A stretch of 9,275 nucleotides of DNA, taken from contig JAUWOV010000069.1 in assembly GCA_030611945.1 (NCBI GenBank), positions 1-9,275 of the forward strand, written 5' to 3'. Source of the stretch: a bacterium. GTDB lineage: Bacteria > JAHJDO01. Shown in pieces: positions 1 through 9,275 of this stretch. The translations under genes were made by a program, and so were the position numbers. The notes beneath the pieces are model-generated. The model saw only the letters and a program-made list of their open reading frames with translations, was not told where the DNA came from and searched no databases. The first letter of the stretch is position 1. The number at the start of each line of letters is the position of its first letter.

Positions 1-1044
1 AAGACAATTTTTCAGTCCATTTTTAACGCGTTTTCGAATGACATAGCAATAGATCTTGGAACATCTACTACTCTTATATATGCAAAGGGCAAAGGTATTG
101 TTCTTTCTGAACCATCGGTTGTTGCTATAAGAGGAAATACGAGCAAAGTGCTGGCTGTTGGAAACGATGCAAAGAGAATGCTTGGAAGAACGCCCGGGGA
201 TATTTCTGCGATAAGACCTTTAAAGGATGGAGTTATTGCAGATTTCGAGGTGGTGGAGATAATGTTAAGACATTTTATAACAAAAATTCATAATAGAAGA
301 ATGTTTATAAGCCCAAGAGTAATTGTTGCCATTCCGTCAGGTATAACAGCCGTGGAAAGAAGGGCTGTAGAGGATTCAGCTATTCATTCGGGGGCAAAAG
401 AGGTTTATTTAATTGAAGAGCCAATGGCAGCAGCTGTAGGAGCAGGACTCCCTGTTCAGGATCCTGCTGCAAGTATGATTGTAGATATAGGAGGCGGGAC
501 TACAGAGATTGCCGTTATATCCCTTGTCGGCAGTGTTTACGGACGAACAATCCGTGTTGCTGGCGATGAAATGGATGCAGGTATTATAGGGCACATCAAA
601 GAGACATATAATGTTCTTATCGGCGAACGTACGGCAGAGGATATAAAAATAAAAATAGGCTCAGCATTTCCAGCAGACAAAGAGGAAAAAATGCAGGTTA
701 AGGGGAGAGATTTGATTGCAGGATTACCAAAGACTGTGTCTGTATCATCTGAGGAAATAAGAGAAGCTCTGAGTGAGCCTGTGTCTGCAATTGTTGATGC
801 CGTTAAAGCAACTCTTGACCGAACGCCGCCTGAATTATCAGCAGATCTGGTTGACAGAGGCATAATATTAGCAGGAGGAGGAGCGCTTCTTAAGGGACTG
901 GATAAATTGCTCATTAAAGAAACGGGCCTTCCTACCAATATAGCAGAAGATCCTATAACTGCTGTTGTGAGAGGCGCTGGCAAGATATTGGAGGAGTTAG
1001 ATTTTTACAAGGATGCTTTGATACATTCTGAATACAGGACTTGA
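1..1044 (+). CDS. mreB: Rod-shape-determining actin homologue MreB (5' end cut by window)
   Basis: MreB is a bacterial actin that polymerises under the inner membrane and positions the elongasome. The reading frame is open from base 1, and 347 residues are visible, about the full family length (E. coli MreB has 347), so only the initiator and perhaps a few residues are missing. The in-frame GTG at 148 is internal, because clear MreB sequence lies upstream of it: a short hydrophobic stretch (IFQSIFNAF), then FSND and the phosphate-1 motif DLGTSTTL near in-window residues 18-25. Further motifs are LGRTPG, the IEEPMAAA stretch near 138, phosphate-2 VDIGGGTTE near 161-169 and the nucleotide-binding segment LAGGGALLKG near 290. 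All actin-fold motifs look intact. The stop overlaps the mreC start by one base. Identification is by direct recognition and is very sure. Confidence 0.97.
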   Translation, partial: KTIFQSIFNAFSNDIAIDLGTSTTLIYAKGKGIVLSEPSVVAIRGNTSKVLAVGNDAKRMLGRTPGDISAIRPLKDGVIADFEVVEIMLRHFITKIHNRRMFISPRVIVAIPSGITAVERRAVEDSAIHSGAKEVYLIEEPMAAAVGAGLPVQDPAASMIVDIGGGTTEIAVISLVGSVYGRTIRVAGDEMDAGIIGHIKETYNVLIGERTAEDIKIKIGSAFPADKEEKMQVKGRDLIAGLPKTVSVSSEEIREALSEPVSAIVDAVKATLDRTPPELSADLVDRGIILAGGGALLKGLDKLLIKETGLPTNIAEDPITAVVRGAGKILEELDFYKDALIHSEYRT

Positions 1045-1829
1045 TGAAACGTGTTCTAGTCCCTATTATTATTTTATGCGCCTGCACTATTATACTCACC
1101 ATCAGTCATAATTATTCGCAAGATAATGTAAGATCAGTATTTTTAAATCTCTTATATCCATTTCAGAAATTAACGAGCTCTGCATATAAGTCTGGTATGA
1201 ATCTAAAGCGAGTTATTCTCTCTGTAAGGGAAATGCGTTCTAAGGAGGATGATCAGAAAAAGGAGATTGAAAGCTTATCAATAGAGATAAGGTTGCTAAG
1301 GTCTTTACATGCAGAAAACAAGAAATTAAGAGAACTTTTGGAGATTAAGAATAAATATAATTATCAGATTATTTTTGCGGAGATTATCGCAGGAGATGTA
1401 ACAGGTCTGTACGATTCAGTAATAATTGACAAAGGAAAAAAGGATAATATTGAGAAGAATATGCCGGTTATGACAGCACGGGGCATTGTAGGAATAACGC
1501 AAGATGTAGGTGCATACTCAACCAGGGTTATAACTATCCTGAATCCAAATTGCAAAGCAGGTGTATCTGTTGGTAAAAATTCCATAAGAGGAGTTATGCA
1601 AGGCAAAGGAGATTATTGCATTATAAAATATATATCTGTAGAAGAAAATATAGAAGTAGGTAACAAAGTATATACTTCTGAAGGAGGAGGAATATATCCT
1701 GAAGGAATAGAAGTTGGCAAAATATTCAGAATAGATAAAAAGCCGCACGATATTTTTCAGATTGTATACGTTCTTCCTTGTGTAAATATTCGAAATTTGG
1801 ATAGGGTCGCAGTAATAAAAAATAAATAA
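1044..1829 (+). CDS. mreC: Rod-shape-determining protein MreC
   Basis: MreC is a bitopic membrane protein whose periplasmic part scaffolds the elongasome and activates PBP2. This 261-residue protein has the expected order: a short basic start (MKR), one membrane helix at about residues 4-21, a charged coiled-coil stretch at about 60-102 (KEDDQKKEIESLS, then ENKKLRELLEIKNK), and a beta-rich domain to the end. That domain carries the family signature GIVGITQDVGAYSTRVITI, followed by NPNCKAGV. I chose the ATG at 1044, which overlaps the mreB stop (TGATG). A TTG at 1041 in the same frame would add one residue but is less likely. No strong Shine-Dalgarno is visible, so translation is probably coupled to mreB. 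The length is near the family norm. Confidence 0.93.
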   Translation: MKRVLVPIIILCACTIILTISHNYSQDNVRSVFLNLLYPFQKLTSSAYKSGMNLKRVILSVREMRSKEDDQKKEIESLSIEIRLLRSLHAENKKLRELLEIKNKYNYQIIFAEIIAGDVTGLYDSVIIDKGKKDNIEKNMPVMTARGIVGITQDVGAYSTRVITILNPNCKAGVSVGKNSIRGVMQGKGDYCIIKYISVEENIEVGNKVYTSEGGGIYPEGIEVGKIFRIDKKPHDIFQIVYVLPCVNIRNLDRVAVIKNK

Positions 1830-2356
1830 TGAAACTGCTTGTCTGGTTATTTCTCGGTCTGTTTTCGATCATTTTCCAAACATCGGTTTTTGATAAATTG
1901 GAGATTCTTGGCGCAAAGCCAGATTTATTATTGATTCTAGTAGTTTACGCCAATTTGCATAAAAAGATGTATAAGGGACTAGCAGTTGCATTATTTGGAG
2001 GTATCTTTGCAGATGGATTTTCAGGTGCTGTCTTTGGGATACAGCTTATTTGTAAACAGGTTGATGCATTCGTTACCCAATTTTTATCAAGAAGATTATT
2101 CGTTAATGAGAAATTTGTAAAAATTTTAATAATAGCAATAGTTAGTCTTGCGGATAGAGTAATATTATATTCAATATCCATTCTGCTGAATCAAAATATG
2201 AACACATTGTTATACCTGGCAAGAAATACAGCGGTTATTATTCTATACAACGTAATGGTCAGCCTTGTTCTTTTCAGATTCTTTGATTATGTTTTTGTAT
2301 TGGGGGATAAAATCTATAAAACATGTTACACAATAAAAAAGAAACTGCGAATATAA
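1829..2356 (+). CDS. mreD: Rod-shape-determining membrane protein MreD
   Basis: MreD is a small polytopic inner-membrane protein of the elongasome that interacts with MreC. The 175-residue product is strongly hydrophobic, with several membrane segments: about 4-18, a stretch around GAKPDLLLILVVYANL, then LAVALFGGIFADGFSGAVFG, ILIIAIVSLADRVILYSISI and TAVIILYNVMVSLVLFRFF. The APDLLLIL-like segment and the GxxxDxxSG-type segment (GIFADGFSGAVFG) are typical of MreD. The ATG overlaps the mreC stop by one base (TAATG), and there is no convincing ribosome binding site of its own, so coupling is likely. Family sequences are poorly conserved, so identification rests on hydrophobicity, these short motifs and position between mreC and mrdA. 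Confidence 0.9.
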   Translation: MKLLVWLFLGLFSIIFQTSVFDKLEILGAKPDLLLILVVYANLHKKMYKGLAVALFGGIFADGFSGAVFGIQLICKQVDAFVTQFLSRRLFVNEKFVKILIIAIVSLADRVILYSISILLNQNMNTLLYLARNTAVIILYNVMVSLVLFRFFDYVFVLGDKIYKTCYTIKKKLRI

Positions 2357-4089
2357 AGAAAAGAATAAAGAACCTTGCTTGGATATTACTGGCATGTTTT
2401 TTGGTTATTATCTTTCGTCTATGGTACTTGCAGCTCATAAGAGGAAAACAGTTCAGCGATAAAGCAAAATCCAACAGAATACGCTTAATTCATATCAATG
2501 CCCAACGAGGCTGCATATACGATAGATATGAAAATGTACTTGTTAAAAATGTCAGTTCTTTTAATGTGCTGGCAGTCCCAGATGAAATAAAAGACATAGA
2601 CGCAACAGTCAAATTACTCTCCGGGATTCTTGGCTTGGAAAGAACTTTTATAATGAAGAGACTTTATGGTTCAGACCATGAGAAGTATTCTCCTGTCAAA
2701 CTGGCATCAAATATTAGTTTGGAGAAAGTAATATTGATTGAAGAGAGAAGCTCTCTTCTTTCAGGAATATTTATTCAGATAGAGCCGCGAAGAAAATATA
2801 TATTAGGAGAAAGCGTAGCGCATATAACAGGACATGTCAGGCAAATTAGAAAAGGAGAGATTGAAAAGAAGCAGTATCATATATTTCAATACAATGAATT
2901 TAAAGGAGAAGGAGGCGTTGAGGAAGCAGCTAATGATTTTCTAAAGGGGTCTGATGGAGGAAAACAGATTGAGGTTAATTCCAGAGGGGAACAAGTAGCA
3001 GTACTTGTGGAGAAAAAACCGGAAAGAGGCAGCAATGTTATTCTTACAATTGATAAGAATATGCAGGAATTTGTAAGCAAATTATTAGAGGACAAGGCAG
3101 GTACAATAATTGTTATGAATCCTCAAAATGGAGATATACTCGCAATGGCAAGTAGTCCTTCTTATAACCCTGAGATTTTTAATACGCCTGTTCTGCAAAC
3201 AGATCTGGACGCTTTAGGGAAAAAGGATGCTCCTTTAGTTAACAGAGCTGTTTCCGCTTTATATGCGCCGGGTTCAATATTTAAGATAGTTATAGCTGCT
3301 GCGGGCTTGAAGTATCATGTTATAAGCTGCTCTCAGGAACTGGAGTGTAAAGGGCACTTGAAAGTTGGGAAAGGAATATTGTATTGCTGGAATAGAGCAG
3401 GACATGGAGGTATGAACATGTCTGACGCTATAAAAAATTCATGCGATGTTTATTTTTATAGATTAGGACTATTGCTGGGAATTAATAGAATTGTGAATTT
3501 TGCAGACGAATGCGGATTTGGCAAACTTACAGGCATAAAGCTTCCTGGTGAGAAGTCGGGACTTCTACCTGATAAGAGCTGGAGAAAAAAGAGGGCTTGG
3601 TATTTCGGGGATACAGCGCTCTTATCAATAGGACAGTCCTATCTCTTAGTAACTCCGCTTCAGCTGGTAAGTCTAATTAGCGCAGTGGCAAATGACGGAA
3701 CTATATATATGCCTAGAATTCTTTTGCAGACACCTCCTGAGCAAATAGGTAAGTTGCCATGCAGTAAGAAAATAATAGGGGAGATTAAAAAGGCTCTCTG
3801 CGAAGTTGTAAGCAATAAAGGAACCGGTAAATTCGCTCAGGTTAAGGGGCTGGAAATTGCAGGCAAAACCAGCACGGTTCAGGTAGTAAAGATGGAACAT
3901 ACTAGAAAATACAAAAATATTCCGTATAAATTCAGGGATCATGCTATGTTCGTTGCTTTTGCTCCTGCAAAAAATCCACAGATTTCCCTCATAGTAGTTA
4001 TTGAACACGGCGGAGAAGGGGGAAGAGTAGCTGCGCCTATTGCAAAACAGATATTTAAATGGTATATGAAAAATAGAAGTGATAAATAA
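2323..4089 (+). CDS. mrdA: Peptidoglycan transpeptidase PBP2, with KTS in place of the KTG motif
   Basis: PBP2 is the class B penicillin-binding protein that cross-links new peptidoglycan during elongation, working with RodA and MreC. The 588 residues show a basic N-terminus, one membrane anchor at about 17-38, a pedestal domain with the INAQRGCIYDR segment (58-68) and a C-terminal transpeptidase domain. Visible catalytic motifs are SxxK (S318-I-F-K321, nucleophile and general base) and S373-C-D375 in the SxN position. The third motif, normally KTG or KSG, reads K515-T-S517, in context AGKTSTVQVV. The segment usually written IGQGYLxVTPLQ reads IGQSYLLVTPLQ here. The start lies 34 bases inside mreD. 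The only purine-rich patch (GGGGG, 2302-2306) is about 16 bases away, so initiation is probably coupled. Length is near normal. Function is sure, but the motif change could alter catalysis or beta-lactam binding. Confidence 0.94.
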   Translation: MLHNKKETANIKKRIKNLAWILLACFLVIIFRLWYLQLIRGKQFSDKAKSNRIRLIHINAQRGCIYDRYENVLVKNVSSFNVLAVPDEIKDIDATVKLLSGILGLERTFIMKRLYGSDHEKYSPVKLASNISLEKVILIEERSSLLSGIFIQIEPRRKYILGESVAHITGHVRQIRKGEIEKKQYHIFQYNEFKGEGGVEEAANDFLKGSDGGKQIEVNSRGEQVAVLVEKKPERGSNVILTIDKNMQEFVSKLLEDKAGTIIVMNPQNGDILAMASSPSYNPEIFNTPVLQTDLDALGKKDAPLVNRAVSALYAPGSIFKIVIAAAGLKYHVISCSQELECKGHLKVGKGILYCWNRAGHGGMNMSDAIKNSCDVYFYRLGLLLGINRIVNFADECGFGKLTGIKLPGEKSGLLPDKSWRKKRAWYFGDTALLSIGQSYLLVTPLQLVSLISAVANDGTIYMPRILLQTPPEQIGKLPCSKKIIGEIKKALCEVVSNKGTGKFAQVKGLEIAGKTSTVQVVKMEHTRKYKNIPYKFRDHAMFVAFAPAKNPQISLIVVIEHGGEGGRVAAPIAKQIFKWYMKNRSDK

Positions 4090-4090
4090 C

Positions 4091-4097
4091 AAGGAGG
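4091..4097 (+). promoter_or_regulatory. Strong Shine-Dalgarno (AAGGAGG) upstream of a possible leader peptide
   Basis: AAGGAGG is a near-perfect match to the anti-Shine-Dalgarno sequence. It lies 8 bases before the ATG at 4106 and 3 bases before an out-of-frame ATG at 4101, but 46 bases before the flavin reductase start at 4144. It is therefore placed to serve a short reading frame in the gap rather than the annotated downstream gene, which has its own weaker AAAGGG at 4131-4136 with 7-base spacing. Confidence 0.6.
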
Positions 4098-4105
4098 AAA
4101 ATGGT

Positions 4106-4147
4106 ATGTCTAAGAAAACACATTGTCATGAAAGGGATAAATCATGA
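4106..4147 (+). CDS. Possible 13-residue leader peptide, ATGA-coupled to the next gene
   Basis: This is a tiny open frame encoding MSKKTHCHERDKS, with a strong Shine-Dalgarno at optimal spacing. Its TGA stop (4145-4147) overlaps the ATG of the flavin reductase gene (4144) in an ATGA junction, the usual arrangement for translational coupling. The peptide is charged and contains one Cys and two His. I recognise no family. A second ATG at 4101 reads a different 16-codon frame that ends at 4151, also across the downstream start, but it sits too close to the Shine-Dalgarno. It could be a translated leader that feeds ribosomes into the next gene, or simply chance. Length alone gives no statistical support. 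Confidence 0.3.
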   Translation: MSKKTHCHERDKS

Positions 4148-4683
4148 ATAAAGTTCGTATAGAAAAAGGGACGACTCTGTGTAGAACTCGACCTTGCATG
4201 ATTATTACCACTTTGCATGAGAATGGGATAGTAAACGCAGGGACTTTTGGTTCCTATACAAATGCGGGGCCACAAGAGATAGCTATTGCTATCGGAAGTT
4301 CGAGTCATACTTATACAAATATAAAACGTACAGGAGAATTTGTTATCAACATTCCTCATATCGGTATAGCTCAAGCCCTGGAGATATGTGGAGGAAATGT
4401 TCCCATAACTGAGAGTGAATTGGATAAGGCTAATTTAACGACAGAGCCTGCCGATGAAATTAAAACTCCTATAATTTCCGAATGTGTGGCTAATGTAGAG
4501 TGTAAATACTGGAAGGAACTGAAAGTCGGGTACCACATACTGGTTCTGGGAAAGATGATTTGTGGTCATCTAGACAAGCGATATGTGGACGAGGATGGGT
4601 CTATTGATGTGGTAAAAGCGCGTGTTCCTTTCAGTATTCGCTATCCTTCACCAATTTATGCTGTTCTTGCCAATGCTGATTAA
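4144..4683 (+). CDS. Flavin reductase-like FMN-binding protein (flavoredoxin type)
   Basis: The 179-residue protein matches the flavin-reductase-like split-barrel family, which binds FMN and includes NAD(P)H:flavin oxidoreductases and the anaerobe electron carrier flavoredoxin. The FMN-site region is visible at about residues 33-72: an AGTFGSYTNAGPQEIAIAIG stretch that fits the family pattern of Ser/Thr-rich loop plus 'P-x-x-(hydrophobic)', then SSHTYTNIKRTGEF, then VINIPH. The C-terminal half (ECKYWKELKVGYHILVLGKM) is also typical of the family. No signal peptide or membrane segment is present, so it is cytoplasmic. The ATG at 4144 has AAAGGG upstream. It lies 54 bases after mrdA and may share its transcript, although no functional link to cell shape is evident. 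The exact electron donor and acceptor cannot be assigned from sequence. Confidence 0.82.
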   Translation: MNKVRIEKGTTLCRTRPCMIITTLHENGIVNAGTFGSYTNAGPQEIAIAIGSSSHTYTNIKRTGEFVINIPHIGIAQALEICGGNVPITESELDKANLTTEPADEIKTPIISECVANVECKYWKELKVGYHILVLGKMICGHLDKRYVDEDGSIDVVKARVPFSIRYPSPIYAVLANAD

Positions 4684-4733
4684 TGATAATTGAGCTAAGA
4701 GTAAAAAAATTGAAGTGTTACTAATAAACGAGA

Positions 4734-4742
4734 GGAGAGGAG
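4734..4742 (+). promoter_or_regulatory. Ribosome binding site of purC
   Basis: The purine-rich stretch GGAGAGGAG contains two GGAG cores. The first (4734-4737) has an 8-base spacing to the ATG at 4746, and the second is only 3 bases away. This supports the chosen purC start. The rest of the 62-base gap after the flavin reductase stop is AT-rich, and I see no convincing promoter pair or terminator hairpin in it. Confidence 0.75.
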
Positions 4743-4745
4743 ATT

Positions 4746-5540
4746 ATGTCAATCAATTTTGAGTCTATGGACAAAACGGCAGAGGGAAAGACAAAGGTAA
4801 TATACAGAAATCCCGAAGATGAGAAAACAGTTTATATGGTCTTCAAGGACGATATAACAGCAGGTGACGGGGTAAAACATGATGTGATTGAGGGCAAGGC
4901 TTTAGTTGACTGGAAAACTAATAGAGATACATTTGAACTTCTTAATAGAAAAGGAGTTAGAACTCATTATATCTCAAGCCCTGAAGAAAAAGTAGCGCTT
5001 GTAAGAAAACTTGACAGAAAAATTAACCTTGAGGTTGTATCAAGAAGAGTTGCTGCAGGCTCTATTCTGAAATGGAGTAATGCTGCTGAGGGACAGAGAT
5101 ACGATCCTGTAATTACCCAATTTCACTATAAGGATGACCCGTTACATGATCCTATGCTGGATGATGCCTATATTGACTATATCATAAAGACAAAGAATGC
5201 TTTTGAATATACTGCGATGAAAAAAATCAATGAACAGGCTTTTGGATATCTTGAGGAAGCTTTTGCGCATTTTGATGTTCAGTTAATAGATATCAAGCTG
5301 GAATATGGTATTATTAATGGAGAGGTATATCTCATAGATGAGATTTCAGGCGGCTCTTTTCGGCTGTGGCCCTATGCGCATAAAAACCCTGATCTCAATC
5401 AAGACAATGTATTGGGGGAACTTAATCCGGAAGCCCGGCTTGACAAGGATACATACAGGATGGGGCAAAGCGCAGATATGGTTAAAAACAAGTTTGCAGA
5501 AATAGCCGATATAACTGCAGGTTTTAAGGATATAGAATAG
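4746..5540 (+). CDS. purC: Phosphoribosylaminoimidazole-succinocarboxamide (SAICAR) synthase, divergent form
   Basis: PurC condenses CAIR with aspartate using ATP in de novo purine synthesis (EC 6.3.2.6), in the cytoplasm. The 264-residue length is near the family norm. Family landmarks are the N-terminal AEGKTKVIYR (12-21), FKDDITAGDG (33-42, matching the usual F.D..TAg.g.), EVVSRRVAAGSILKW (96-110, matching EvVvRn.aaGS), KDDPLHDPML (129-138) and DIKLEYG (182-188). The ligand segment reads DEISGGSFRLWPY, where most PurC proteins have DE(I/F)SPD..RLWD. The end of the protein (LDKDTYRMGQSADMVKNKF) also departs from the common ending. The invariant RLW and LDKD elements remain. No other purine gene is adjacent. 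Assignment to PurC is firm, but the divergence leaves room for a subfamily with somewhat altered ligands. Confidence 0.9.
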   Translation: MSINFESMDKTAEGKTKVIYRNPEDEKTVYMVFKDDITAGDGVKHDVIEGKALVDWKTNRDTFELLNRKGVRTHYISSPEEKVALVRKLDRKINLEVVSRRVAAGSILKWSNAAEGQRYDPVITQFHYKDDPLHDPMLDDAYIDYIIKTKNAFEYTAMKKINEQAFGYLEEAFAHFDVQLIDIKLEYGIINGEVYLIDEISGGSFRLWPYAHKNPDLNQDNVLGELNPEARLDKDTYRMGQSADMVKNKFAEIADITAGFKDIE

Positions 5541-5546
5541 AAAGAA

Positions 5547-6596
5547 TTAAACAAACACTTTCTTCACATAAGGCGAAGTTGACAATCTAAGCAATGCCGA
5601 ATAGTTAATATCAAATGCTATTTCACTTCCTACTTCAAGATGCTTTTTGGAATGTAAAATCAAATGATCGCTGCTTGCTCCAATGACTTTAGCATTTATT
5701 CTGGGCGTTACAGCTTTTGTATCAACGTCTTGTTCCCCGATACCAATTATTATCCGATTGATATTACCAATATCTGCAAACTCAGGTGTATCTCCAAATG
5801 CATTTTGACATATTTCACCATAAGGTAGAGAGGGTTTTAATTTACTTTCTATAACCTCGCATATTAGAGTAAATGCATCTGTGTACAATTTTGGGATTTT
5901 GTTTCTGTGCAAAGTTTCCCTACCTAATAAAATAGCCTCCCCAATTCTTAGATTATTAATATTTCTTATATTATTTGTATGTAAAAACCATTCATAATTT
6001 GCCGAATTCCCACCTGAAATCATATGCAGCTTTATGTTGTATTTTTCTTGTATACGTTCTGCTGTTTGAGATAACTCAATCATATTTTCCTCTGAAGGGT
6101 TAACACCTCCAAAGCAGGCAAGATTTGTGCCAATGCCATATAATTCAACTCCTTTTAGTAGAATAATTTGTTCAATGATTGAGTCTGTATCTCCGGGTAA
6201 TATCCCTTCTCTTAAATCACCGAGTTCTAACATTAAAACTACTTTATGTCTTTTACCTTGTTTAAGAGAATGTTCAGATAATAATTTAATTGTTGATATC
6301 TCAGAGTTTAAACTTATGTCTGCATATTTAACAACATCTGCAACTTCAGTATGCATAGGTAGACGTGTAAGCAAAAATTTTGCTTTCACTCCGGATTCTT
6401 TCATTCTTTTGATATTTTGAACAAGAGAAACTGCTATTGTAGATATTCCGCACTCTAAAATTGCATTAGCAATTTCGGGAGAACCTGTTACTCCCTTTAT
6501 TACGGCAGTAACAGATATACCTTTTTTAGCAAATAATTCTTTTAATGTTGTAACATTGTGCTTTATCTTGTTTATATCTATTTCTAATCTGGGCAT
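5547..6596 (-). CDS. orr: Ornithine racemase-like, PLP-dependent amino acid racemase
   Basis: The 349-residue protein belongs to the fold-type III alanine/ornithine racemase family, which inverts the alpha carbon of amino acids using PLP. It closely follows the clostridial ornithine racemase (Orr) pattern as I remember it: opening PRLEIDINKIKHNV, the probable PLP lysine K34 in SVTAVIKGV, DISLNSE (93-99), MLELGDLREGI (122-132), GIGTNLACFGG (154-164), ISGGNSANY (193-201), NNLRIGEAILLGRET (214-228), GASSDHLIL (306-314) and the ending TSPYVKKVFV. In clostridia Orr makes D-ornithine for the cobalamin/PLP enzyme ornithine 4,5-aminomutase. Here it is the last gene of a three-gene minus-strand set and starts 13 bases inside the ligase gene with only a weak ribosome binding site, so it is probably coupled. 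Substrate is inferred by resemblance; alanine, lysine or another amino acid remains possible. Confidence 0.85.
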   Translation of the reverse strand: MPRLEIDINKIKHNVTTLKELFAKKGISVTAVIKGVTGSPEIANAILECGISTIAVSLVQNIKRMKESGVKAKFLLTRLPMHTEVADVVKYADISLNSEISTIKLLSEHSLKQGKRHKVVLMLELGDLREGILPGDTDSIIEQIILLKGVELYGIGTNLACFGGVNPSEENMIELSQTAERIQEKYNIKLHMISGGNSANYEWFLHTNNIRNINNLRIGEAILLGRETLHRNKIPKLYTDAFTLICEVIESKLKPSLPYGEICQNAFGDTPEFADIGNINRIIIGIGEQDVDTKAVTPRINAKVIGASSDHLILHSKKHLEVGSEIAFDINYSALLRLSTSPYVKKVFV

Positions 6597-7579
6597 TTTA
6601 TTTTATTTCTTTTTAAAGCTGATTTTACAATTTTATCAATAAGTTCGGTTGAATCCATATTGCTGGCGACAGCCATAAACCCAATGTAACTATGCGGTTT
6701 TTCTTTAGGCGTACACATTAAGCCTGCAAAGGAGTTCACTTCTAAAAGATAAGAACCTTCTTTGGTTAATATGGTATCAATTCGTCCGTAATCTTTCAAG
6801 CCAATAGCACGGTAAGCATTTTTTGCAAATTCTTTGATATTGTTCATCTCTGTTTCATTTAATCTTGCAGGACAATAAAAACTGTCATCATCCATCTCTT
6901 TTTTATCAAATGTTAAAAATCGTGACTCACCACCAAAAGAAATCTCTAGTGGTGGCAGTACTTCAATATCATCACCATTGCCAATTACACCAAGAGTTAT
7001 TTCGGTTCCCTGCAAAAATTTCTCAATTAAAACAGGTTGTTTTATAGTACTTAATCTTTCTTCAACACCTTTTACAAGTTGCTCAAAATTTTCAACAATA
7101 GAGTTGTCATCAATTCCAGCGCTTCCTCTGCCTGCAACCGGTTTAATAAATAACGGATAATCAAAAGGAGGATTGTTTTTAAATACAGAACAATCTTCTA
7201 CAGATTTTGCTACAAAAAAAGGTGAAGTTTGCAATCCTTCACTTTCCCATATTTTTTTTGCTAATGATTTATCAGTAGCAATAGCAATTGCAGAAGTATC
7301 TGATCCTACAAATGGAATTTCAAGTTCTTCTAAGATCGCTGCTTCTGCCATACTCGAAACATTAAACACTAAATCGACATTGTTATCTTCTAAATCTTTT
7401 ATAAAAGATATTCCCCAGTTTATAGTGCAAACTTCATATCCGGCATTAATTAATGCTTGTTTATGATGAGCAACTTCTTTATGTGTTTCATCAACTACAT
7501 CATCTTTACCTACAAACTTTTCCTGTAATTTAAAATTCCCTCTTTTCTTGTTTAATAATCCAATTTTAATTTTTGTCAT
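6584..7579 (-). CDS. D-Ala-D-Ala ligase-like ATP-grasp enzyme of uncertain substrate
   Basis: The 331-residue protein has the ATP-grasp layout of D-alanine-D-alanine ligases, which make an amide bond through an acyl-phosphate. It has an N-terminal Rossmann-like domain to about 100 (VDLVFNVSSMAEAAILEELE, then IPFVGSDTSAIAIATDKSLA), the ATP-binding lysine K146 in FIKP, the glycine-rich loop GRGSAG (150-155), E186-K187, E193, and the metal-binding end R266-I-D268 with E280-V-N282 in YLLEVNSFAGL. The canonical Ddl loop, HGxxGEDG after the 'VFN' strand, is absent: the corresponding residues are SSMAE, with only a glutamate kept. Such Ddl-like proteins are often not the cell-wall enzyme. It overlaps the upstream gene by 14 bases and the racemase by 13, so it likely acts in the same pathway, joining a (D-)amino acid to something. 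A true Ddl role cannot be excluded. Confidence 0.72.
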   Translation of the reverse strand: MTKIKIGLLNKKRGNFKLQEKFVGKDDVVDETHKEVAHHKQALINAGYEVCTINWGISFIKDLEDNNVDLVFNVSSMAEAAILEELEIPFVGSDTSAIAIATDKSLAKKIWESEGLQTSPFFVAKSVEDCSVFKNNPPFDYPLFIKPVAGRGSAGIDDNSIVENFEQLVKGVEERLSTIKQPVLIEKFLQGTEITLGVIGNGDDIEVLPPLEISFGGESRFLTFDKKEMDDDSFYCPARLNETEMNNIKEFAKNAYRAIGLKDYGRIDTILTKEGSYLLEVNSFAGLMCTPKEKPHSYIGFMAVASNMDSTELIDKIVKSALKRNKIKCPD

Positions 7580-9275
7580 TTTCCAAATTTTTCCTTATTA
7601 TCAAATTCATTCTATCCTTTGCCGATATTATTTTACCATCAAGATAAATATCAACTCCTCCATTTCTTAATTTTGTATCCCATTTTACAGCTTCAGGGAA
7701 TTCCTCTCTACAATACATTAGCTGTGGTACCGGTAAAAACCCCATCTTAAAGATGCCGTAAAAACCTTGCGGAGTATATGTGTCTTTTATGTTAGTCTCA
7801 ATAGCATTTATCACTATCTTAGCTTCGTTTATAAGATGGACCATCCTTTTGTTAACATCCTGATTCTCATGCATATTATCTATCCATCCTTTTTTCCTAT
7901 ACTCTCGGTATTTATTAAGAGAAAACAATGTTATCTTAATACTTTCATCTATTATTTCCGGTGTTGCCAAATCATTACCCTCAGAATAACTAACTACATG
8001 AATTATATCCGGGCTCTGACTATTAAAAGGCTCAATGTCATCCATTAATGCGGTTATTGAAGCCAGTTGTTTTTTGGCTTTATCGATATCGTGTGATAAA
8101 TAACTTAAACCAACCCTTGTTTGCAAAAATACTTTAAAATCCGAATCTTCCAGTGCTTTTACTATATTTAATGTTGCTCTTGCTTTCGCCAGATCATTAA
8201 TTGCTGAAGTATGCTTTGGGTCATTTAACATTATTTGCAGAATAAAATGTTTTATGCCTAGCTTCTTGGCAGCCTTTGCAGCAAGGAAGGCTGATACTGC
8301 ATAACTTACATCGTCCGATGCGCGGAATGCAAAATGATGGGCTACATTTGCTTCGTATGGTTTACCGGTTTTGGCAATATATTTAATTGTTTCAAAATGT
8401 TCGGTTAAATTATCAAGAAGATTTAACGCTCCCCGTCCATCTATTTTAGAAAACCACCATAAAGATAAAGCATGCCATGCGATATTTAATGATTTTTCAT
8501 GTATTTTAGCTTGTTTGCAGAGATTTTTTGTACCGGCATAAGTTCTTACAAGCATCGGTTTTGCAGCTTCATATATACGTTCATATTCCTCTTGCGAATT
8601 AACCCCTACACCTCCACCATTAGGAAGATTATCCCAGTTTTCTCCAAATTTTGATTGAGTTAATTGGGAAGTTCCTATTGACAGAACATCCAAATAGCCA
8701 CTATGAGCCAATAAACGGGACCATTCAATAAATTGTTTTACAGATTCATAACTGTTTTCAAGATAAGGTCCTGCGTGAGCTCTTATTATCGGCGGTAAAT
8801 TGTTTTCTCTACCATGCCTGATGCGATCGATTAATCCATCATGTACTGTCCCGAAATTCTTATATCCACTTCTATCCACAGGTAATGTTGATATATAATC
8901 TCCTTTATCAATTATTTCTTTACCAAAGTCATCTAAGGTGATTTTATATGTACTCTCGTCTTTAAATCCTTTTGATGCTTTTGCAGGGTCTATGCCAAGC
9001 ATTTTCAGGCTATCTGTAAATGATTCATCACCATAAAAAACAATTACGTCTTTATATAAATATTTAATTTTATTACAAGCTTCAGGCAATCCGGCAAACC
9101 AAATATTTTTTAGTTTTCCACCGTCTTTTACCAGCATTTTCTTTGATTCCAATTGGTACATAAGTTTTTGGAATATTAGTACTGCATCATCAACATTCAG
9201 ACGGTAACTAAACCCTAAAGCTTTAATATTGTATTTTATAATCCATTTTTCGATTAATGATGAATTGTATATATT
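7566..9275 (-). CDS. Glutamate-mutase-epsilon-like TIM-barrel protein (5' end cut by window)
   Basis: At least 569 residues are visible. The frame is open to the window edge, so the ATG at 9161 is probably internal: about 38 further in-frame residues precede it, including KALGFSYRLNVDDAV. Numbering from that ATG, the protein has an N-terminal part with IWFAGLPEA (20-28), then a region resembling the TIM barrel of GlmE (methylaspartate mutase epsilon subunit): FGTVHDGL, NLPPIIRAHAGPY (121-133), LSIGTSQLTQSKFG (160-173), NGGGVGVNS, MLVRTYAGT, and especially KPYEANVAHHFAFRASDD (267-284), then AFLAAKAAKKLG and DLAKARATL. These align by eye with GlmE segments REPFGPLTG...ALLAAEQG and DIAALRCL. No DxHxxG cobalamin-binding signature is seen, so a separate B12 subunit would be needed. 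GlmE, KamD and OraE are all possible relatives. The substrate is unknown, and the call is by recognition, not search. Confidence 0.5.
   Translation of the reverse strand, partial: NIYNSSLIEKWIIKYNIKALGFSYRLNVDDAVLIFQKLMYQLESKKMLVKDGGKLKNIWFAGLPEACNKIKYLYKDVIVFYGDESFTDSLKMLGIDPAKASKGFKDESTYKITLDDFGKEIIDKGDYISTLPVDRSGYKNFGTVHDGLIDRIRHGRENNLPPIIRAHAGPYLENSYESVKQFIEWSRLLAHSGYLDVLSIGTSQLTQSKFGENWDNLPNGGGVGVNSQEEYERIYEAAKPMLVRTYAGTKNLCKQAKIHEKSLNIAWHALSLWWFSKIDGRGALNLLDNLTEHFETIKYIAKTGKPYEANVAHHFAFRASDDVSYAVSAFLAAKAAKKLGIKHFILQIMLNDPKHTSAINDLAKARATLNIVKALEDSDFKVFLQTRVGLSYLSHDIDKAKKQLASITALMDDIEPFNSQSPDIIHVVSYSEGNDLATPEIIDESIKITLFSLNKYREYRKKGWIDNMHENQDVNKRMVHLINEAKIVINAIETNIKDTYTPQGFYGIFKMGFLPVPQLMYCREEFPEAVKWDTKLRNGGVDIYLDGKIISAKDRMNLIIRKNLENDKN

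Follow-up and report, generated by a model that had tools for sequence, protein, structure and literature searches.

The described systems closest to the locus reported here are glutamate mutase (GlmE + GlmS; PF06368, PF02310), the aminomutase OraSE with the racemase Orr of clostridial ornithine fermentation, the opine dehydrogenases of the octopine and norvaline type, D-Ala-D-Ala ligase (Ddl) and the PylB-PylC-PylD enzymes of pyrrolysine synthesis. The locus lies at one end of a 9,275-nucleotide contig (JAUWOV010000069.1, assembly GCA_030611945.1; hereafter the window) from a bacterium of the GTDB lineage JAHJDO01, where three genes encode an amino-acid racemase (ORR), an ATP-grasp ligase (LIG) and a mutase (MUT). 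Together with an opine dehydrogenase gene (ODH) that we located on a second contig, they make up a conserved, mobile operon of an unnamed B12-type mutase family, an opine dehydrogenase, a ligase other than Ddl and an Orr-like racemase. In our estimate the chance is about even that the ODH-MUT-LIG-ORR operon directs the B12-dependent synthesis of an amino-acid conjugate, which is most likely to be a compatible solute or some other osmotic- or ion-stress metabolite. An earlier note, made from the letters of the window, knew of no described operon with this combination of genes, and among openly licensed PubMed Central (PMC) papers we likewise found none linking them.

The four genes of the operon

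The window is the entire contig C107 of its genome (G000), a metagenome-assembled genome (MAG) of 1.66 Mb. The three overlapping minus-strand genes of the earlier note were confirmed as open reading frames (ORFs), with overlaps of exactly 14 and 13 bases. MUT runs off the end of the window. In a six-frame search its first 47 residues there reappeared, with 100% identity, at the end of G000 contig C41; the ends of C107 and C41 overlap by 141 identical bases. The joined sequence encodes, in a single frame, a complete MUT of 623 amino acids with a GTG start, and ODH lies upstream of it (Table 1). The join is very probably correct, because four relatives with an intact contig have the same gene order and a MUT of 623 or 625 amino acids. 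The contig may have broken inside MUT through the presence of several similar cassettes in the sampled community. The earlier note had proposed extending the assembly to look for a B12-binding subunit; the extension did reveal the B12-binding part, not as a separate subunit but as a domain fused at the N-terminus of MUT.

ODH contains the Octopine_DH domain (PF02317, 141.6 bits, cut-off 30), and its family aligns over the full length to N-(1-D-carboxylethyl)-L-norvaline dehydrogenase 1bg6 (profile E 1e-104). His, Arg and Asp are catalytic in the octopine dehydrogenase family. The corresponding residues H201, R291 and D296 of ODH are kept in 58 of 58 sequences and match H202, R292 and D297 of 1bg6. 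In L038 (3135-4736), ODH carries an N-terminal EIIA domain of the phosphotransferase system (PF00359, 103 bits), an unusual fusion to a regulatory domain.

The earlier note had called the large protein mutase-like, and we find support for a B12-dependent mutase in a motif and in homology, which together indicate the cofactor class. The MUT alignment comprised 62 relatives, and the profile used for hhalign had 55 rows after filtering. The DxHxxG motif of cobalamin-binding domains reads DAHTLG in MUT (residues 19-24, on C41); its His and last Gly are kept in 62 of 62 sequences, while the first position is D in 27 and C in 35. The B12-binding family PF02310 scores up to 40 bits in L003 and weakly (17 bits) in MUT of the cassette type. 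When the family profile was compared with PDB, cobalamin proteins were matched in their B12 domains only, and a single MUT sequence had no match among solved structures. No family in Pfam or NCBIfam covers the catalytic part of MUT; the window fragment matches none at all, and PF06368 (GlmE) is not matched by it at E 0.01.

Compared by hhalign, the family profile resembles GlmE (92.1%, E 6e-7, 232 columns in the C-terminal region), whereas lysine aminomutase reached 5.9%, the barrel of ornithine aminomutase 0.5% and methylmalonyl-CoA mutase 38%. Because of these values, MUT is best read from its profile as distantly related to glutamate mutase rather than as an aminomutase fed by Orr, the cobalamin/pyridoxal phosphate (PLP) type that the earlier note had brought up. 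An aminomutase-type barrel (PF09043) was tried and rejected on the two aminomutase values; PF09043 also has no match in G000. In a forced global alignment of low confidence, the arginine of the GlmE QPRAG motif falls on MUT Arg219 (62/62) and the RHG arginine near Arg298 (61/62).

LIG matches Dala_Dala_lig_C at 6e-27, yet it lies far under every Ddl cut-off, with 132 bits against 245.65 for TIGR01205. The suspicion that the ligase is not the ordinary cell-wall Ddl was borne out, as G000 has a true Ddl at 334 bits on contig C79 and the Ddl candidate was rejected for LIG. We compared the active sites of 42 LIG sequences and eight true Ddl from the same genome set. The ATP/Mg residues K97, K144, E180, K215, D257, E270 and N272 are conserved in 37 to 42 of the 42. 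In Ddl, Arg255 and Ser281 (E. coli numbering) hold the acceptor carboxylate, and Tyr216 and Glu15 close on and bind the first D-alanine. LIG keeps the equivalents of Arg255 and Ser281, but Tyr216 is lost in 42 of 42 and Glu15 in most; at the Glu15/Ser150/Tyr216 triad the window LIG has D, G and E. This pattern of loss and retention suggests that LIG joins an acyl donor other than D-alanine to an amino acid whose carboxylate is free. In a Victivallaceae locus (L014, 11697-13769), a single gene of 690 amino acids encodes another, different ATP-grasp ligase with LIG fused to its end, and this double ligase suggests two ligation steps.

ORR contains Ala_racemase_N (2e-26). Its alignment to NF040742 ("ornithine racemase Orr") is full-length and makes this the best family by far, at a score below the cut-off (Table 1).

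The rest of the window (1-5540, plus strand) is ordinary and convergent with ORR; it holds mreB-mreC-mreD-PBP2, a flavin reductase gene and purC.

Table 1. Features of the operon in the window and on the adjoining contig
Feature	Position	Strand	Size or extent	Assignment and remarks
ORR	5547..6596	minus	349 amino acids	PLP-dependent amino-acid racemase close to Orr; NF040742 402 bits, cut-off 480; kept in all four-gene cassettes
LIG	6584..7579	minus	331 amino acids	Ddl-superfamily ATP-grasp ligase, distinct from Ddl by score and active-site comparison
MUT	7566..9275	minus	569 amino acids, open at window end; residues 55-623 of 623	Putative B12-dependent mutase, unnamed family
MUT N-terminal B12-binding domain, window part	8988..9275	minus	about residues 55-150, boundary approximate	
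MUT C-terminal catalytic region	7569..8885	minus	about residues 185-623	Putative triosephosphate isomerase (TIM) barrel, remotely GlmE-like
MUT/LIG overlap	7566..7579	minus	14 bases	
LIG/ORR overlap	6584..6596	minus	13 bases	
ODH	L009 5572-6681 (contig G000:C41)		369 amino acids	Opine dehydrogenase; 26 bases upstream of MUT
MUT residues 1-54	L009, from base 6708 (contig G000:C41)		54 residues	

Distribution and movement of the cassette

MUT was found in 15 of 385 genomes sampled across the domain (about 4%), namely G000 and 14 others at 25-39% identity, and in 65 of 101 genomes and 27 of 38 genera of Thermotogota, the phylum holding G327. Counting the joined window locus, 62 MUT loci were examined for their neighbours. 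Every one of the 62 has ODH next to MUT; ORF calling showed this for 59 and tblastn for three (L109, L123 and the cut locus L011). LIG stands beside MUT in 42 loci and is absent beside the other 20, and the orders LIG-ODH-MUT, ODH-LIG-MUT and ODH-MUT-LIG all occur. Because gene order is permuted among lineages, the link of MUT, ODH and LIG is argued to be functional and not merely inherited. ORR was found in only seven loci, the window and its six close relatives. The racemase, which the earlier note had counted among three pathway genes, is thus peripheral, and the constant partner of the mutase is ODH, which lies outside the window.

The six relatives, found in a set of species genomes, encode a MUT at 84-91% amino-acid identity to that of the window. 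They come from MAGs named as Bacteroidales (two), Bacteroidota, Chlorobiota, Cloacimonadota and Victivallaceae, and as far as their contigs reach they have the order ODH-MUT-LIG-ORR with differing flanks. The linkage of the four genes is far beyond chance, and the co-occurrence in unrelated taxa that the earlier note had proposed to look for is seen in MAGs of several named phyla, which share all four genes in an identical order. Among the cassettes the MUT DNA is 82-92% identical, and before ODH only about 75 bases of leader are conserved between the window, L010 and L012. Since the MUT genes of MAGs from several phyla are this similar at the DNA level, the cassette appears to have moved recently, by transfer between phyla or, in part, through mis-binning of single contigs. 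Transfer is favoured by the length of the contigs that carry L010 (98 kb) and L014 (84 kb). Four members of the same genus as the window organism were searched and have no MUT. Neither mutase type had a plasmid match, and a search for phage origin gave no match in PHROGs. In two Bacteroidales MAGs, a B12-binding radical S-adenosylmethionine (SAM) protein starts 12 bases after ORR (L010, 13745-15136; L012, 6020-6877) and may contribute an additional reaction to the pathway in these organisms.

In the MUT tree the window type, with G419 and G471, splits from the rest, on long branches and with the deep order unsure. G419 has a window-type mutase (51% identity) together with an ODH 82% and a LIG 71% identical to those of sister genomes that carry the other mutase type. 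In G419 the mutase was exchanged in situ, which makes it probable that both mutase types catalyse the same kind of step.

Other arrangements were seen at single loci or in single groups. The genome G455 (L115) carries the ODH-MUT pair twice, at a distance of about 9 kb. A class III aminotransferase gene lies 85 bases downstream of MUT in L118 (5882-7081), and its N-terminus looks like that of ornithine aminotransferase, a second hint of ornithine. In one Thermotogota family (L097-L100, L105, L106 and L111), a 2-hydroxyacid-dehydrogenase-like gene directly precedes ODH-MUT-LIG and possibly supplies the oxo acid; in most of these loci it is preceded in turn by a glycerate-kinase-like (MOFRL) gene.

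Riboswitches, a proposed pathway and its rivals

The best physiological clue came from riboswitches of osmotic and ion classes upstream of the genes in relatives, which argue against a primary role in the cell wall. In G050 and G385, of one genus, a cyclic di-AMP (c-di-AMP) riboswitch (RF00379; 107 and 106 bits) ends 2 bases before ODH of ODH-MUT-LIG. It is the only one found in each of the two genomes, and none was found in any other of the 50 MUT genomes. In G187 both genomic nhaA-I RNAs are at the MUT locus, one of them about 47 bases before an operon of ODH, MUT, a CBS gene and a Na+/H+ exchanger gene. Such RNAs are riboswitches for Li+ or, in variants, Na+ (PMC9646797). With four aptamers in 50 genomes of about 1000 operons, the expectation before one of the 62 operons is, as a rough estimate, about 0.005, compared with the three operons observed, from two independent lineages. 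In L035 the ODH-MUT pair stands behind a TrkA_C transporter. The other nhaA-I RNA of G187 lies before a neighbouring asparagine-synthase/amidotransferase gene (L036, 4992-6413 and 6654-6706), possibly another gene of osmolyte type. In L040, a c-di-GMP-I-GGC riboswitch (5159-5241) stands ahead of a chemoreceptor gene, itself 36 bases before LIG-ODH-MUT, and the operon may there be under another cyclic dinucleotide.

We infer the adenosylcobalamin chemistry, the substrates, the order of steps and the product as follows. ORR, in the four-gene cassette only, would supply a D-amino acid, probably D-ornithine. MUT would use adenosylcobalamin for a carbon-skeleton rearrangement of the glutamate-mutase type, giving a branched non-protein amino acid. 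ODH, whose catalytic residues are present, would use NAD(P)H to couple a 2-oxo acid to the amino group and so form an opine-type secondary amine, and LIG, judging by its site residues, would use ATP to form an amide bond between a donor that is not D-alanine and an acceptor amino acid whose carboxylate is free. In some relatives c-di-AMP or alkali-ion riboswitches would set expression. At rather less than even chances, this may be the first B12-dependent compatible-solute pathway, in which a glutamate-mutase-like enzyme of a new family, ODH and the ATP-grasp ligase would make an opine-peptide, under c-di-AMP or alkali-ion control in some organisms and on a cassette spread between phyla in apparently anoxic marine settings.

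Several observations weigh against a compatible solute made in this way. The osmotic clue stems from two independent lineages that have the other mutase type, and is carried over to the window by way of the step that both types probably share. No riboswitch reached the gathering score in the cassette of the window or in any of the four-gene cassettes scanned, none precedes the other Thermotogota MUT operons, and the whole-genome aptamer counts used stricter filters. No exporter or osmosensor gene recurs next to the cassette. An AlphaFold model of MUT, made from seven near-identical sequences, had a mean predicted local distance difference test (pLDDT) of 45.5 and was too poor to display the putative TIM barrel or an active site. 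The PduO-type adenosyltransferase (PF01923), the one type looked for, is absent in G000 and in most MUT genomes; since 15 of 18 genomes are without it, PF01923 is a poor marker of B12 use.

Cell-wall modification is the foremost of four rival explanations, and we consider it unlikely. The racemase and the Ddl-like ligase would make a D-amino acid or D-configured dipeptide for peptidoglycan, and the mutase and dehydrogenase an unusual residue; LIG does belong to the Ddl superfamily, ORR is a D-amino-acid racemase, and cell-wall genes are among those controlled by c-di-AMP riboswitches (PMC3766115). The separate true Ddl of the genome speaks against it, as do the few loci with the racemase, the 20 without the ligase, and the nhaA-I RNA with its Na+/H+ exchanger, which point to ions. 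No Mur genes recur beside the cluster, and the mreBCD-PBP2 genes of the window are not common to other cassettes. Degradation of an opine or of ornithine, by fermentation as in clostridia with Orr and OraSE, would explain the Orr-type racemase and the aminotransferase of L118, and all the enzymes but the ligase are reversible in principle. The ligase consumes ATP, however, no thiolase/dehydrogenase set of ornithine fermentation was seen beside the cluster, the MUT barrel is unlike those of the aminomutases, and osmotic control would be odd; catabolism ranks just below the cell wall and is also unlikely.

Still less is to be said for an opine metallophore of the staphylopine kind, a secreted metal chelator that would be made by a racemase, a modification of the amino acid and an opine dehydrogenase. 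The staphylopine and pseudopaline clusters are known to combine a racemase with an opine dehydrogenase, and a major facilitator superfamily (MFS) transporter adjoins ODH-MUT in L033. ODH is nevertheless of the norvaline-dehydrogenase type, scoring 15 bits against a cut-off of 25 with the staphylopine dehydrogenase model, and the riboswitches belong to osmotic and ion classes. No nicotianamine-synthase-like gene, recurrent exporter or metal importer was recognised among the recurrent neighbours of the 62 loci, not all neighbours being annotated. The least probable rival is a pyrrolysine-like pathway with other enzymes, in which the mutase would give a methylated diamino acid, the ligase would couple it and the dehydrogenase would finish the product, as PylB, PylC and PylD do. 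Applied to lysine or ornithine, chemistry of the glutamate-mutase type would yield methyl-branched diamino acids, and the enzyme types are the same set. For none of the families, though, was homology with a Pyl protein shown, LIG being of the Ddl and ODH of the octopine type; tRNA-Pyl and PylS were not searched for.

An unnamed mutase family without a Pfam model would extend the short list of adenosylcobalamin isomerases by one reaction, and the riboswitch link offers a direct experimental handle on the product in bacteria that can be cultured, Kosmotoga among them. Should the product be a compatible solute, the salt tolerance of anoxic communities would be influenced by the supply of vitamin B12, and the recent spread among several phyla would be a case of an osmoadaptation trait transferred as a single unit.

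Comparison with known systems

MUT shares with glutamate mutase the DxHxxG His in the B12 domain and a profile-similar C-terminal half. It differs in being one chain with the B12 domain N-terminal, in standing always with an opine dehydrogenase, and in that no GlmL was seen beside it; at best two of the GlmE substrate arginines have seeming counterparts in the low-confidence alignment given above. With OraSE and Orr the cassette has in common an Orr-type racemase and a B12 domain in MUT similar to that of OraE (96%), whereas the barrels are not similar and no OraS, DAP dehydrogenase or OrtAB was recognised beside MUT. LIG has the ATP-grasp fold family and the ATP-site and acceptor-carboxylate residues of D-Ala-D-Ala ligase, and departs from it in score and in the residues for the first D-alanine. 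Among the opine dehydrogenases of the norvaline and octopine type, ODH resembles 1bg6 over its whole length and in its His, Arg and Asp, but is here always coupled to a B12 mutase. The likeness to PylB-PylC-PylD, as a set of mutase, ATP-grasp ligase and NAD dehydrogenase, is by analogy only, for the Pyl enzymes include a radical-SAM mutase and belong to other families.

As regards osmolytes, the known systems nearest to the operon contain, to our knowledge, neither a B12 enzyme nor an opine dehydrogenase. The operons for osmolytes under Na+ or c-di-AMP riboswitches, among them that for the precursor of N-epsilon-acetyl-beta-lysine (PMC9337991), share their riboswitch class with the loci of G050 and G385, and the dipeptide N-acetylglutaminylglutamine amide (PMC1224877) is, like the conjugate proposed here, an osmolyte of the peptide type made from amino acids.

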